64,000 nucleotides of DNA, taken from Boseongicola sp. SB0665_bin_10 (GTDB lineage: Bacteria; Pseudomonadota; Alphaproteobacteria; Rhodobacterales; Rhodobacteraceae). Shown piece by piece: positions 55,311 through 61,652 of this stretch; the first letter of the stretch is position 1, and the number at the start of each line of letters is the position of its first letter. Under the pieces are notes generated by a model. That model worked only from the letters and a program-made list of their open reading frames with translations, ran no database searches and had not been told where the DNA came from. The position numbers and the translations under genes were made by a program. Location: positions 1 to 64,000 of the forward strand of contig VXSG01000004.1 of NCBI GenBank assembly GCA_009838075.1, in the 5' to 3' direction.

Positions 55311-55447
55311 CACCATCCAGCCTGATGCGGATTGCCAAGGCTTCGACGCGCCCCGGCGGCAGACGGACGGCTGCCTGGGCCCGTCTTCAAACGGCGACGC
55401 GCTGCACTGCCAGCCGGCACTTCCAGGTCGTTCCGGCATGGCTGCGC

Positions 55448-58183
55448 TCATCGTTCGGTGAGCTTCAGCTCGATCCGCCGGTTCTGCGCCCGGGCTGCGT
55501 CGGTGTCCTCCGGGTTGACCGGCCGGTATTCGCCGAATCCCGCGGCGGCCAGCCGTTCCGGCGGGAAGCCCAGCGTCCCGGTCATGTATTTCACCACCGA
55601 CAGCGCGCGGCCCGCGCTGAGCTCCCAGTTGTCCGCGAACGCGCCCGCCACCACCACCGGCGCGTTGTCGGTGTGCCCGTCGACCCGCAGCACCCAGTCG
55701 AGGTTCGGCGGGATCTCGTCGGCCACCTCCTCGAGGATCCCCGCGACCTCCTCGATCGACGCCTGCCCCTCCGGCAGCAGCGTCGCCGAGCCGCTCTCGA
55801 ACAGCACCTCCGACGGGAACAGGAACCGGTCGCCGACGACCCGCACACCCTCCCGGTCGCCCAGGACCCGCCGCAGCGTGCCGAAGAACTCCGACCGGTA
55901 GGCGGCGAGGTCGACCACCTCCTCGTCCAGCGCCGCCTTCTCGCGCCGCAGCCGCTCCGCCTCCGCCGCCTCCAGCGCCGCGCGCCGCCGCTGCTCCGCC
56001 GCCACGCGGGCCAGCGCCCGGTTCAGCCGGCTCCCCAGCGCGTCGATCCGCACCCGGGACTCCCTGTCCCGCTCCTCGGCGCTGTCCAGGAGCCTCGAGA
56101 GCTCCGCCAGCTGGCCCCGGAGCGCGGCCACCTGCGCGTTCAGCAGCGCCACCTCGCGCTGCGCCCGCGAGGAGATCTCCCGCTCCTCCGCCAGCTGCCG
56201 GCCGGCCGTGTCGAGGAGGGCCTGCCTCCGGTCCCGCTCGTCGATCGCGCCCGCGCGCGCGTCCTCCGCCGCCAGCCGCGCCGCAAGCGCGGCGGCCAGC
56301 TCCTCGCGCAGCCGCGCAGCGTCCGCCTCCGCGTCCGCCTCCGCGTCCCGCAGCGCCGACACCTCCTCCCGGAGCCTGTCGCGGGCCGCCGCCAGCAGCG
56401 CCAGCTCGGCCAACGCGCCGTCCCGGCCGGACTCCGCCTCCTCAAGCAGGCCTTCCGCGCGGCCGAGCCGCGCGAGGGCCTCGTCAAGCCGCGCGTTCAG
56501 CTCCTCCCCGGCCGCGCCGGCCGCCGCCAGCTCGGCCAGCGCGCCGTCCCGGCCGGACTCCGCCTCCTCAAGCAGGCCCTCCGCGAGGACGAGCTTCGCG
56601 ACCACCTCGGCAAGCCGCGCGTTCAGCTCCTCCTCGGCCGCGTTGGCCGCCGCGAGCAGGGCAAGCGTCTCCTCGGCGTCCTTCCGCGCCTCCTCGAGCT
56701 GGAGCGACAGCGCGGTCAGCTCGGCGTTCGAGTTGCGCAGCCTCTCGCGCAGCGCCTCCGCGATCGCCGCCTCCGCGAGCCGCGCCGCCTCCTTCGCGTC
56801 AAGCTCCGCCTGCGCGCTGTCGGCCTGCGCCAGCAGCTCCCTGATGACCGCCGCGTCGGCCTCGGCGCCGCTGCGGGCACTGCCAAGCTCGGCCCGGGCC
56901 TCGGCCAGCGACGCCGCGGCCTCGGCCCCGGCGGCCTCCGAGCGCTCCAGCGCCGCCAGCGCGTCCGCCAGGGACGCGTCGCGCGCCGCAATGTCGGCCA
57001 GGGCACGGGCCAGCAGCGCGGCGGTCTCGGTCTCGGTCACTTCCGACCGCTCAAGCGCCGCGTAGGCTTCCGCCAGGGACACGTCGCGCGCCTCGATGTC
57101 GGCAAGGGCACGGGCCAGCAACGCCGCGGTCTCCGCCTCGGTGGATTCAGACCGCTCGAGGGCGGCGCGGGCTTCCGCAAGGGACGCGTTGCGCGCCTCG
57201 ACGTCAGCCAGGGCGCGGACCAGCAGCGCCGCGGTCTCCGCCTCGGTCATTTCGGACTGCTCAAGCGCCGCCAGGGCTTGCGCAAGGGACACGTCCCGCG
57301 CCTCGATGTCGGCAAGGGCACGAACCAGCAACGCCGCGGTCTCCGCCTCGGTGATTTCCGACTGCTCGAGTGCGGCGCGAGCTTCCGCAAGGGACGCGTC
57401 GCGCTCCTCGAGGTCGGCCAGGGCGCGGGCCAGCAACGCAGCGGTCTCCGCCTCGGAGATTTCCGATCGCCTGAGCGCCGCGAGGGCTTGCGCAAGGGAC
57501 ACGTCGCGCTCCTCGACATCGGCCAGGGCACGGACAAGCAATGCGGCAGTCTCCGCCTCGGAGATTTCAGACTGCTCAAGCGCCGCGAGAGCTTGCGTCA
57601 GGGACGCCTCGCGCGCCGCTACGTCAACCCGTAGCCGAGCCGCAACCGCCTCAAGAGTCCGGCTTTCCTCCAATGCACTGTCACGCTCGATCAGCAATGC
57701 GGCTATCTGCTCCTCAAAACTGGCGATCGTCGCATCCCGATCGCGAAGCGTGCGCGCCTGCACATCGATCTGACCCGTGAGACTCGCGATGAGCGCAGCC
57801 TGCCGGTCGGTCTCGCCCTGCAATCTTGCAATCGCTTCATCCCGCACGAGAAGCGTGTGCGCCTGCGCGTCGATCTGGCCGGTGAGATCGGCGATGAGCG
57901 CGGCCTGCCGCTCGGTCTCGCCTTGCAGCGTGGCAACGCCTTGCCGAAGTTGCGTGGCTTCCTGCTTCGACAGTCCGAGCGCCTCGCTGAGTGCCAGCAC
58001 TTCTGCCGACAGGTCGCCGAGCGCCGACTCCTGTCCCGTAATGGTCTCTCGCAGGACTGCCTGCACGAACATGAAAATCGTGAGCAGGAAAATCAGCACC
58101 AGAAGCAGGGCTGCCATGGCATCCACGAAGCCCGGCCAGATCGAACCGGACACGCGCTGCATCGACCTATGTGTCAGGGCCAT
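55448..58183 (-). CDS. MotB/OmpA-like peptidoglycan-binding protein with long repetitive coiled coil
   Basis: N-terminal WPGFVDAMAALLLVLIFLLTIF TM with conserved Asp; heptad repeats; C-terminal OmpA domain VDGHTDNAPVV...RAQNRRIELKL. Confidence 0.88.
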   Translation of the reverse strand: MALTHRSMQRVSGSIWPGFVDAMAALLLVLIFLLTIFMFVQAVLRETITGQESALGDLSAEVLALSEALGLSKQEATQLRQGVATLQGETERQAALIADLTGQIDAQAHTLLVRDEAIARLQGETDRQAALIASLTGQIDVQARTLRDRDATIASFEEQIAALLIERDSALEESRTLEAVAARLRVDVAAREASLTQALAALEQSEISEAETAALLVRALADVEERDVSLAQALAALRRSEISEAETAALLARALADLEERDASLAEARAALEQSEITEAETAALLVRALADIEARDVSLAQALAALEQSEMTEAETAALLVRALADVEARNASLAEARAALERSESTEAETAALLARALADIEARDVSLAEAYAALERSEVTETETAALLARALADIAARDASLADALAALERSEAAGAEAAASLAEARAELGSARSGAEADAAVIRELLAQADSAQAELDAKEAARLAEAAIAEALRERLRNSNAELTALSLQLEEARKDAEETLALLAAANAAEEELNARLAEVVAKLVLAEGLLEEAESGRDGALAELAAAGAAGEELNARLDEALARLGRAEGLLEEAESGRDGALAELALLAAARDRLREEVSALRDAEADAEADAARLREELAAALAARLAAEDARAGAIDERDRRQALLDTAGRQLAEEREISSRAQREVALLNAQVAALRGQLAELSRLLDSAEERDRESRVRIDALGSRLNRALARVAAEQRRRAALEAAEAERLRREKAALDEEVVDLAAYRSEFFGTLRRVLGDREGVRVVGDRFLFPSEVLFESGSATLLPEGQASIEEVAGILEEVADEIPPNLDWVLRVDGHTDNAPVVVAGAFADNWELSAGRALSVVKYMTGTLGFPPERLAAAGFGEYRPVNPEDTDAARAQNRRIELKLTER
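56393..56638 (-). repeat. Two tandem 126-bp (42-aa) repeats within the MotB-like gene
   Basis: EELNARLxExxAxLxxAEGLLEEAESGRDGALAEL twice; about 57 bp nearly identical at DNA level. Confidence 0.85.
56879..57613 (-). repeat. Seven tandem 105-bp (35-aa) repeats within the MotB-like gene, last copy degenerate
   Basis: RD(V/A)SLAxAxAALxxSExxEAETAALLxRALADxEx unit; copies alternate RDVSLAQAL / RDASLAEAR. Confidence 0.92.
57719..57928 (-). repeat. Two tandem 105-bp (35-aa) repeats of a second family
   Basis: LQGETERQAALIADLTGQIDAQAHTLLVRDEAIAR / LQGETDRQAALIASLTGQIDVQARTLRDRDATIAS. Confidence 0.9.
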
Positions 58184-58186
58184 GGT

Positions 58187-59350
58187 TCAAGGTCCATCCT
58201 GACCGTGCTGCCCAAGCGCCCGTATCTCCTTCGTCAATTCTGCAAGATCGGCCCTCAGCGCACCCATGCTTTCCTGCCGGCCAGCCGAGACTTCTTCCAG
58301 AATGCGAAGCACCTGAATGTCCATTGACCTCAAGCGCCGGCGGCTTTCCGCGTCAAAGCCACTGGCCCCTTCCCGCACCAGCCCTTCCAGGGCGGCCACA
58401 AGACGGTCCTGAGCCTCGGAATTCCATTCAAGGTCGCGTTCGCCAAGGTTTTCGTTGAGCGCACCTATGGCATCGACGACCCTTTCCAATTGCTTGCTGT
58501 CGGCAACGCGTTGCTCTGTTGTTTCGGCATAGGCCGTCTGCAGCTGATTCATCTGCTCGGCAAGGTGTTCAACCAGTTGCGAAAGCGAGCCCTCTTCGCC
58601 GCCCGCCCCCTCTTCGCCAGCGAATCCGACCCGGGTCATGCTAGAGAGCCACTCCTCAAGTTCTCGAAAGAAGCGGTTCTGGCCGTGACTGGCAAAAAGT
58701 TCCAGGATCCCGACAACGAGCGACCCGGCCAATCCCAAAAGCGAGGACGCAAAGGCGATGCCCATTCCTTCAAGCTGGTCCTCAAGACCGGATATCAGGC
58801 GCTCGAACACCGTGACGCCGCTTTCGCCTTCCGCTGGGGCCAATGCCCGAATCGTGTCCACCACGGCGGGCACAGTGGTGGCGAGACCATAGAATGTGCC
58901 CAGAAGACCCAGAAAAATAAGGAGATTTATGATGTATCGCGTGATGTCGCGAGCTTCGTCAATGCGCGTTGCGACGGAATCCAGGATCGAGCGGGAGGAC
59001 GACGCGCCGATCTGGCTTCCTGCGCTCTTCTTGCGCAGGAGAGCAGCCAACGGAGCCAGCAGCCTCGGTGCCTTGACCAGCTCGTGGCCTGGGCGACCCT
59101 GGGCAAACCCCTCGATCCAGCTGACCGACGACACCAACTGAAAGATCTGCCAGAAGCAGGCCACGACCCCTATGACAAAGACAAGAGCTATGAACGCGTT
59201 GAACCATGGGTTCGCAAGGAAGACGGGAGCGACCCGCGGGAAGGCCAGCACGGCCCCGACGCCGACCAGCGTCAACACCAGGATCATCGTCATGAACTGA
59301 CGATAAGGTTGCGTGAAATCCCACTCAGCCTCGGTGTCCGGCCGGCTCAT
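58187..59350 (-). CDS. MotA/TolQ/ExbB proton-channel-family protein with C-terminal helical tail
   Basis: TMs including INLLIFLGLLGTFYGLATTVP and GMGIAFASSLLGLAGSLVVGILELF; 3 nt from the MotB-like gene. Confidence 0.88.
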   Translation of the reverse strand: MSRPDTEAEWDFTQPYRQFMTMILVLTLVGVGAVLAFPRVAPVFLANPWFNAFIALVFVIGVVACFWQIFQLVSSVSWIEGFAQGRPGHELVKAPRLLAPLAALLRKKSAGSQIGASSSRSILDSVATRIDEARDITRYIINLLIFLGLLGTFYGLATTVPAVVDTIRALAPAEGESGVTVFERLISGLEDQLEGMGIAFASSLLGLAGSLVVGILELFASHGQNRFFRELEEWLSSMTRVGFAGEEGAGGEEGSLSQLVEHLAEQMNQLQTAYAETTEQRVADSKQLERVVDAIGALNENLGERDLEWNSEAQDRLVAALEGLVREGASGFDAESRRRLRSMDIQVLRILEEVSAGRQESMGALRADLAELTKEIRALGQHGQDGP

Positions 59351-60050: not shown

Positions 60051-60617
60051 CTACCGGCCACCCACTGCCAGGACGTGCACGCGTGCCGACAGCCAGTCCA
60101 GATCCTCGTCCTCGATGCCCAGTTCCCGAAGGTGATCCGCCGTGTTCCAGAGGTACTCCGAATTCGGGCCGCGTCCGCCTGCAGCACGCGCGATGATCCG
60201 GGCCTGCTGTTCAAGTGCCAGTCCTGAGACGTACTGCACATGGGTTCGGTCAATCACGTATGCCAGCGCCGTCACCGCAGGACCGTCCGCGACATCCAGT
60301 TCAACGAGGCGCTCCTGGTACGCAGAAGATATCAATTCGCGTTCGCGCAGGCATTCGATCGCCTCGATGCTTGCGTGGTCAGGCACGCGCATCACCTGCC
60401 CGTGGCACGACGCCCCGGACACTTCGTCGAGTGCGAGCACCAGCCCCGGATCCCCGGCGGTTCCACGGTGGTGGATTGAACGCATGCAAAACGACCTGTG
60501 ATAGCCGCGCAGCGTCGCGAGCTTCCGCTCGACCACCGGAAATCCCGGGTTCCAGAGAAGCGATGCGTACCCGAAGACCCAAAGCGGGTGCAGATCCAGG
60601 ACTTTCTCTTCCGTCAT
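60051..60617 (-). CDS. Gamma-glutamylcyclotransferase (ChaC family)
   Basis: LWVFGYASLLWNPGF, GYHRSFCMRSIHHRGT, YLWNTADHLRELGI. Confidence 0.92.
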   Translation of the reverse strand: MTEEKVLDLHPLWVFGYASLLWNPGFPVVERKLATLRGYHRSFCMRSIHHRGTAGDPGLVLALDEVSGASCHGQVMRVPDHASIEAIECLRERELISSAYQERLVELDVADGPAVTALAYVIDRTHVQYVSGLALEQQARIIARAAGGRGPNSEYLWNTADHLRELGIEDEDLDWLSARVHVLAVGGR

Positions 60618-60659
60618 GGCCACCTTAAAACAGCGGACAACAGTCAAGGGAAGGGGCGG

Positions 60660-61652
60660 ATGCTGCGTCTTGTTGCGGTGCTCGTGGTTGCCGCGCTTTT
60701 GTGGATGTGCTGGTGGGTCATCGGGCATTCTGCATATCAGAGAACCCTTGCGTCCTGGATGGAACAGAGGCGCAACGATGGCTGGGTGGCGGATTTCTCG
60801 GACATCGCGACACGCGGCTTTCCCAACCGCTTCGACACCACCATGTCCGATCTCACGCTGGCGGATCCTGGCTCGGGCATCGCCTGGTCGGCGCCTTTCG
60901 TGCAGTTCCTTTCGCTTGCCTACAGACCGCATGAGGTCATCGCGGTTCTGCCGGACAAGCACGTGATCTCGACGCCGAGGGAGGCGCTTCAGGTCAACCA
61001 TGGCAGTGCTCGCGCATCAATCCACTTCAAGCCCTCAACCGACCTTGCCCTGGAAAGGGCGCGGCTTGTCCTGAAAGACCCCCGAATCCACTCCTCGCTG
61101 GGTTGGACCGTTTCGTCGACGGAGTTGCGCTTCGCCATCGAGACGATTCCCGTGCGCGAAAGCGCGTATCGAGTGGGAATGGAATTGCTGGAGCTTTCGC
61201 TCCCGGACATGCTGCGACGCGCCCTGAGTTCGTCCCGGACATTGCCTGACAAGATAGGCGTGGTTCGCGCCGACGCGGAGTTAGGGCTTGATGCGCAAAT
61301 TGACCGGCGTTTCCTTGAAGGGGCGCATCTCGGGATCAACCGGTTGGACCTGGCCGACCTGTCGGTTCGCTGGGGCGAATTCTCCTTCAGTGCAAAGGGC
61401 AACCTGACCGTCTCGGAGGATGGCGTGCCAGACGGCGAGATCATGCTTCGCGCGGCTGGATGGAAAGCCCCCCTGGACCTGGCGGAAACGATGGGACTGA
61501 TCGAGCCGGCATTTCTCGAGGCGCTGGAGACTGCGCTCGATCTGATGAGCGGGCACGGAGATGTGGTTGAACTCCCGCTCGTGTTCTCGCGCGGCCAGGT
61601 CAGCTTGGGCCTGTTTCCGTTGGGAAGGGCTCCAAGACTCCAGGCTTGGTGA
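60660..61652 (+). CDS. DUF2125 domain-containing protein
   Basis: N-terminal TM, TRGFPNRFDTTMSDLTLADPGSGIAWSAPFVQFLSLAYRPHEV. Confidence 0.88.
   Translation: MLRLVAVLVVAALLWMCWWVIGHSAYQRTLASWMEQRRNDGWVADFSDIATRGFPNRFDTTMSDLTLADPGSGIAWSAPFVQFLSLAYRPHEVIAVLPDKHVISTPREALQVNHGSARASIHFKPSTDLALERARLVLKDPRIHSSLGWTVSSTELRFAIETIPVRESAYRVGMELLELSLPDMLRRALSSSRTLPDKIGVVRADAELGLDAQIDRRFLEGAHLGINRLDLADLSVRWGEFSFSAKGNLTVSEDGVPDGEIMLRAAGWKAPLDLAETMGLIEPAFLEALETALDLMSGHGDVVELPLVFSRGQVSLGLFPLGRAPRLQAW

Follow-up and report, generated by a model that had tools for sequence, protein, structure and literature searches.

A heptad length rule and tandem repeats in the predicted coiled-coil stalk of a MotB-like protein of Rhodobacteraceae

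Introduction

What sets the length of the stalk that joins the membrane helix of a MotB-like protein to its peptidoglycan-binding domain, and what is that length for? The question is raised by a gene in a 64,000-nucleotide stretch of Boseongicola sp. SB0665_bin_10 (contig VXSG01000004.1, positions 1 to 64,000; hereafter the window), the stalk of which is enlarged by three separate tandem-repeat expansions. A preliminary description of the locus had read these expansions as a tunable spacer, with a coiled-coil register kept by units in multiples of seven residues and a copy number that may vary to match the periplasmic or peptidoglycan distance. Here we compare the gene with its orthologues and favour, with moderate confidence, a different reading: that the protein is the wall-anchored, long-reach arm of a non-flagellar proton motor of the 5:2 type, a coiled coil constrained in register and not a radial spacer.

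Results

The features of the locus are listed below by window position; all lie on the minus strand, and residue numbers refer to the B protein.

58187..59350, minus strand: A subunit, ~387 aa, a TolQ/ExbB/MotA-like channel protein by weak MotA_ExbB and ZorA matches; adjoins B
55448..58183, minus strand: B subunit, an open reading frame of 911 aa assigned by NCBIfam to the PRK09039 family of peptidoglycan-binding proteins, with a MotB/TolR/ZorB-like layout
58058..58138, minus strand: single transmembrane (TM) helix, residues ~16-42, with WPGFVDAM and Asp21 (invariant columns, 42 orthologues)
57725..57934, minus strand: repeat a, 2 x 35 aa LQGET units, residues 84-153, variable zone 1 (TRF, unit comparison)
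57680..57730, minus strand: conserved stalk island 2, residues 152-168 (SFEEQIAALLIERD), with F156 E157 Q159 V160 A161 L163 invariant or near-invariant
56885..57619, minus strand: repeat b, 7 x 35 aa RDxSLA units, residues 189-433, variable zone 2 (TRF, unit matrix)
56639..56821, minus strand: conserved stalk island 3, residues 455-515, with near-invariant columns 461-513
56396..56647, minus strand: repeat c, 2 x 42 aa, residues 513-596, variable zone 3 (TRF, unit comparison)
55880..56236, minus strand: conserved C-terminal stalk island 4, residues 650-768, LLNxQVAALRxQL ... YRSEFFG (42-orthologue alignment)
55478..55804, minus strand: OmpA/MotB-type peptidoglycan-binding domain, residues 794-902 (PF00691, PDB sequence and Foldseek matches)

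The B protein was recognized by the NCBIfam model NF006542 (PRK09039, 'peptidoglycan -binding protein') at 603.6 bits, against a curated cut-off of 388, and so were all 42 of the aligned orthologues. The family is already catalogued (NCBIfam PRK09039, NF006542-NF006546), and PRK09039-type orthologues are present in 294 of the 298 genera of Rhodobacteraceae as well as in many other alphaproteobacterial families; a literature search found no functional study of the B family or of the A-B pair. Within the TM helix (IWPGFVDAMAALLLVLIFLLTIFM), the residues W16 P17 G18 F19 V20 D21 A22 are invariant columns of the 42-orthologue alignment, and Asp21 fits the TM aspartate of the B subunit of a 5:2 ion-driven motor, for which an ion-carrying role is predicted. 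At the other end, residues 794-902 match Pfam PF00691 (E 6e-15), and this OmpA-type domain matches MotB and PomB among PDB sequences and MotS, MotB and TagL domains by Foldseek; the MotB-like architecture of the preliminary description is thus supported. The two are joined by a stalk of ~720 residues, an Ala/Leu/Glu-rich helix with no proline. A 769-aa open frame on the plus strand (55325-57634) runs antisense to most of the B gene, and we regard it as a probable by-product of the GC-rich codons of the heptads.

B is linked in an operon with a partner, A, the stop codon of which lies 3 bp before the B start (the listed A open reading frame extends to 59419), and A adjoins B in 139 of 141 same-strand loci. 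Measured from a fixed anchor at 40 loci, the length of A was near-constant (5th-95th percentile 373-399 aa), and a GLLGT TM motif is invariant in it. Against PF01618 (MotA_ExbB) the window protein fell below the Pfam cut-off and six of 22 members matched at E<=0.01, and the ZorA1 model of PADLOC matched at E 3.9e-9; the best PDB profile matches of A were designed coiled coils and hence uninformative. The genes around the pair are ChaC, DUF2125, prephenate dehydrogenase, CorC and XerD. A ChaC-like gamma-glutamylcyclotransferase gene and a DUF2125 gene (window 60051-61001, minus strand, and 60498-61652, plus strand) are retained upstream of A and B at the family loci examined.

All three expansions of the preliminary description (2 x 35, 7 x 35 and 2 x 42 aa) were recovered at the expected place in this minus-strand gene (55448-58183), with unit sizes of 35, 35 and 42 aa that are indeed multiples of 7. 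Units are 79% identical at the nucleotide (nt) level in repeat a, 71-90% in b, where unit 7 is degenerate, and 88% in c; the TRF periods and scores are 105 nt and 849 for array b, 105 nt and 297 for a, and 126 nt and 420 for c. Compared with itself over 70 residues, the stalk reaches an identity of at best 0.84 at lag 70 and 0.83 with a lag of 35, and a chance origin of the repeats was rejected, since 200 shuffles over all lags reached a maximum of 0.40. Units 3 and 5 of array b, which are 90% identical, weakly suggest the 70-aa higher-order duplication that had also been proposed, but identities at lag 1 and lag 2 overlap and the array of one congener (G001) does not alternate. In the 42 orthologues the conserved stretches are residues 1-90, 152-168, 455-515 and 650 onward, and these islands flank the expansions, so that the repeats occupy three variable zones between them; the edge of island 2 overlaps the last residues of repeat a.

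Copy number was proposed to vary between strains, and it does vary between species: the window has 7 units of array b, G007 and G002 have 8 each, G005 has 10, a count inferred from the order of the units where a contig ends, and G001 has 11, where units are up to 97% nt identical and the short-read assembly may under-count. Contigs of several congeners break inside the B gene. Repeat a is present in two copies in all five species of the genus, and the zone c duplications are of 42 aa in the window, 35 aa in G001 and 28 aa in G007 (6, 5 and 4 heptads), units which were duplicated separately in the three species. Relatives from the sister genus (L123, L126) carry one unit of the LQ(G/N)ES type and one b-like proto-unit, indicating that arrays a and b both grew in the genus of the window.

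Several further features of the gene were seen. One congener (L212, G006:C77) has a fragment similar to the 35-aa unit of array b (AREASLSDALAALARSEAAGAETAAS) within variable zone c, as if a unit had moved between zones. A 28-aa (four-heptad) internal repeat occurs across many genera (L035, L050, L075, L080, L152, L163, L166, L180), and that of the sister genus, which includes RLAEAAAAEAL-type units, could represent an earlier expansion at island 3. In five congeners, the 3' end of the B gene is found in additional copies directly upstream of a tRNA-Thr(CGT) gene (L062, L063, L066, L067, L060), and the genome of the window itself has a decayed copy at the same tRNA site (L069 5554-5920, contig C52). 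The corC-side contigs L061, L064, L065 and L068 start with the same B gene end, and at most one 5' half of the gene was found per genome; this suggests that either the 3' part of the gene is duplicated or a second copy of the operon collapsed in assembly.

The length of the stalk follows a heptad rule across the family. We defined an alignment-free spacing D, from the TM motif (FVD) to the YRSEFF motif before the OmpA domain, in 132 orthologues, and 116 of these fall in classes 1, 4 and 5 modulo 7 (n=51, 47 and 18; all others n=16). The 85 distinct values of D have counts of 4, 30, 6, 3, 27, 12 and 3 for remainders 0 to 6 (chi-square p 2e-12, with orthologues that are not phylogenetically independent). 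Within the family, the distinct values showed no pattern at p<0.05 for moduli 3-6 and 8-11, and modulus 14, the double of 7, was also significant; all 15 orthologues from other families lie in classes 1, 4 and 5. Alignment gaps behave alike: 896 of 1326 distinct gaps (68%; 14% expected), de-duplicated by length and inserted sequence only, are multiples of 7, and 259 of the other 430 are 3 or 4 modulo 7. Steps of 3 or 4 residues, known as stammers and stutters, are tolerated by coiled coils, the core of which stays continuous. The commonest gap across the family is a single heptad. Bias of the aligner towards multiples of 7 was rejected, as simulated deletions of random length, re-aligned with the same settings, were flat modulo 7.

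The composition and periodicity of the stalks are of the same kind. Among strongly repeat-bearing stalks, the best period is divisible by 7 in 16 of 20, and over the whole window stalk the hydrophobicity period peaks at 3.50 residues, not 3.6. Prolines number 13 per 57,169 stalk residues, with none in 123 of the 132 stalks, and cysteine is absent from all of them. Taken together, the period, the spacing modulo 7 and the gap sizes bear out the earlier proposal that register is kept between the TM helix and the OmpA domain, and a register-keeping coiled coil is well supported at the level of sequence. The heptad codons form 21-nt quasi-repeats, and indels of 7 residues could thus be partly mutational; nonetheless, such a bias does not predict the classes of 3 and 4 modulo 7, which favours selection for continuity of the core. 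To our knowledge, neither the quantified heptad rule nor the repeat-driven extension has been described for the B family, and a literature search on tandem-repeat length variation of periplasmic coiled coils found nothing relevant.

Structure prediction bears on whether the stalk is a rod throughout. An AF2 monomer model of the whole B protein, made with 42 sequences and of low confidence, was helical over residues 18-774 at a mean pLDDT of 67, with helices at 52-204, 384-494, 499-643 and 649-774 (153, 111, 145 and 126 residues), and over most of array b it placed breaks of 4-5 residues every 35 residues, at SE(I/M)(S/T)EAE. Modelling of array b alone gave the same break positions, at a pLDDT of about 41-61. 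The AlphaFold check proposed for a continuous coil was therefore divided, with long helices elsewhere in the stalk but low-confidence breaks in array b, and a strictly continuous rod there is uncertain. This leaves room for a compact stalk, in which the units of array b would be single helices with tight turns at SE(I/M)(S/T)EAE that pack into an antiparallel, spectrin-like bundle; more of the stalk might fold likewise, and added units would thicken or slightly lengthen a short rod. Such a fold would suit the periplasm better, it agrees with the recurrence of the breaks at one repeat position and a 35-residue spacing in both AF2 runs, and it would account for the S/T-x-x-E capping box and the missing hydrophobic core of the third heptad in each unit. 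We nevertheless consider it unlikely, though it deserves to be taken seriously: the breaks are of low pLDDT (about 40-60), copy numbers of both parities (7, 8, 8, 10, 11) would flip an up-down bundle, a single-heptad gap is hard to fit in one arm of a hairpin, and elsewhere in the stalk the model has helices of 111-153 residues. On the models, array b could be either a parallel rod with polar interruptions or an antiparallel bundle, and the parity of the copy numbers and the prevalence of single-heptad gaps favour the rod.

The lengths themselves are far from uniform, the orthologue spacing ranging from about 138 to 2195 residues. With ~0.1485 nm per helical residue and the stalk taken as straight, the window protein would measure ~110 nm, the family median ~66 nm, orthologues of other families ~39 nm and that of G021 ~326 nm. 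The latter (L055, G021:C12) is a 2363-aa orthologue in which about ten 113-aa repeats range from similar to identical and ~2170 stalk residues include no proline, with one N stretch in the assembly; its 113-aa unit could consist of 13 heptads and two hendecads. The periplasm of Gram-negative bacteria is roughly 20-30 nm wide, so stalks of several times this length make a straight radial spacer implausible for most of the family. Within some other genera the length is fixed, at 537, 578 or 738 aa, each common to several species, which points to constraint there.

These lengths bear on two further explanations. If any in-register length worked, unequal recombination would shift the copy number with no functional meaning, and the near-identical units of G001, the 113-aa repeats of G021 and the use of three unit sizes in zone c by sister species are what such neutral drift would leave behind; lengths held constant across species in several genera speak against it, and as a complete account we regard it as improbable, although it is compatible with the long-reach arm, of which it would be the evolutionary half. 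That copy number tunes the stalk to the membrane-to-wall distance of each strain, as first proposed, is very improbable and was not borne out, since straight lengths at the family median, in the window and in G021 all exceed the periplasm several-fold, the lengths of congeners are up to 157 residues (23 nm) apart and several other genera have a fixed length, even though copy number does differ between species and the shortest orthologues (138-179 residues, ~20-27 nm) would fit.

Discussion

The long-reach arm that we favour would work as follows. A, TolQ/ExbB/MotA-like, and B, MotB-like, would form a non-flagellar proton-motor pair, nearly universal in Rhodobacteraceae, in which two B chains sit in a pentameric A channel, the dimer being deduced from the 5:2 stoichiometry of known relatives. 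Beyond the membrane, the B dimer would continue as a parallel, in-register coiled-coil arm that ends in the peptidoglycan-binding OmpA domain, with a stalk made of four conserved islands and three variable zones. The variable zones would gain and lose units of 4-6 heptads through tandem duplication, and the changes that last would for the most part be those that leave the core unbroken (7n, or 7n plus or minus 3/4). The phase of the arm would be constrained, and its length loosely so. As the arm is far longer than the gap between membrane and wall, it probably takes an oblique or sideways course in the periplasm, and the excess length may provide a long, torsionally stiff reach of the motor to the wall.

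In its broadest form, the proposal is that a near-universal, unstudied envelope motor drives, or is held by, a coiled-coil arm of 60-300 nm that runs along the wall, and this we put forward tentatively, as less likely than not. If it is true, the arm would provide mechanical coupling over a long range within the periplasm, and its length would evolve in heptad quanta, set differently from genus to genus. The family also presents one coiled-coil stalk in a natural series of lengths (~140 to 2200 residues) between fixed end domains within one bacterial class, and a length rule that can be read without alignment; together these make it testable whether the length of a coiled coil, or only its phase, matters in a membrane motor. 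They also draw attention to a motor pair, uncharacterised and found in nearly all genera of the family, the arms of which would be several times as long as the periplasm is wide.

Among known proteins, the members of the PRK09039 family share the TM, stalk and OmpA layout of the window protein, which at 911 aa, with three extra tandem expansions, exceeds the 627 aa of the NF006542 model. MotB and PomB likewise have an N-terminal TM helix with a conserved Asp and a C-terminal OmpA-like peptidoglycan-binding domain, but the window protein differs in its ~720-residue, proline-free coiled-coil stalk, and identity with a flagellar stator was rejected because no flagellar genes lie beside the A-B pair. 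An excerpt of one study mentions non-flagellar relatives with 'extraordinarily large periplasmic domains', without naming the present family (PMC12505986).

The PADLOC models of ZorB and ZorA match B and A, and for Zorya a ZorA5ZorB2 arrangement and a requirement for wall binding have been shown (PMC11890865). However, the long extension is on A and cytoplasmic in Zorya, whereas here it is on B and periplasmic. In five neighbours PADLOC gave no match, either to defence genes at large or to the ZorC/ZorD or ZorE effectors, and this, together with the near-universal distribution in the family, led us to reject membership of Zorya.

Domain II of TolA is also a periplasmic arm of variable length (110-335 residues) driven by a TolQ-type motor, and in gammaproteobacteria it is typically much longer than the width of the periplasm, which has been read as excess reach (PMC12204202); TolA differs in being a separate protein with a different end domain. 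Finally, the arms of SMC proteins, although they are the cytoplasmic, antiparallel arms of an ATPase and belong to an unrelated protein, resemble the B stalk in that a long coiled coil has its length under periodic constraint: their natural lengths are multimodal, and they are functional only at lengths that fall in a periodic pattern (PMC5344682).
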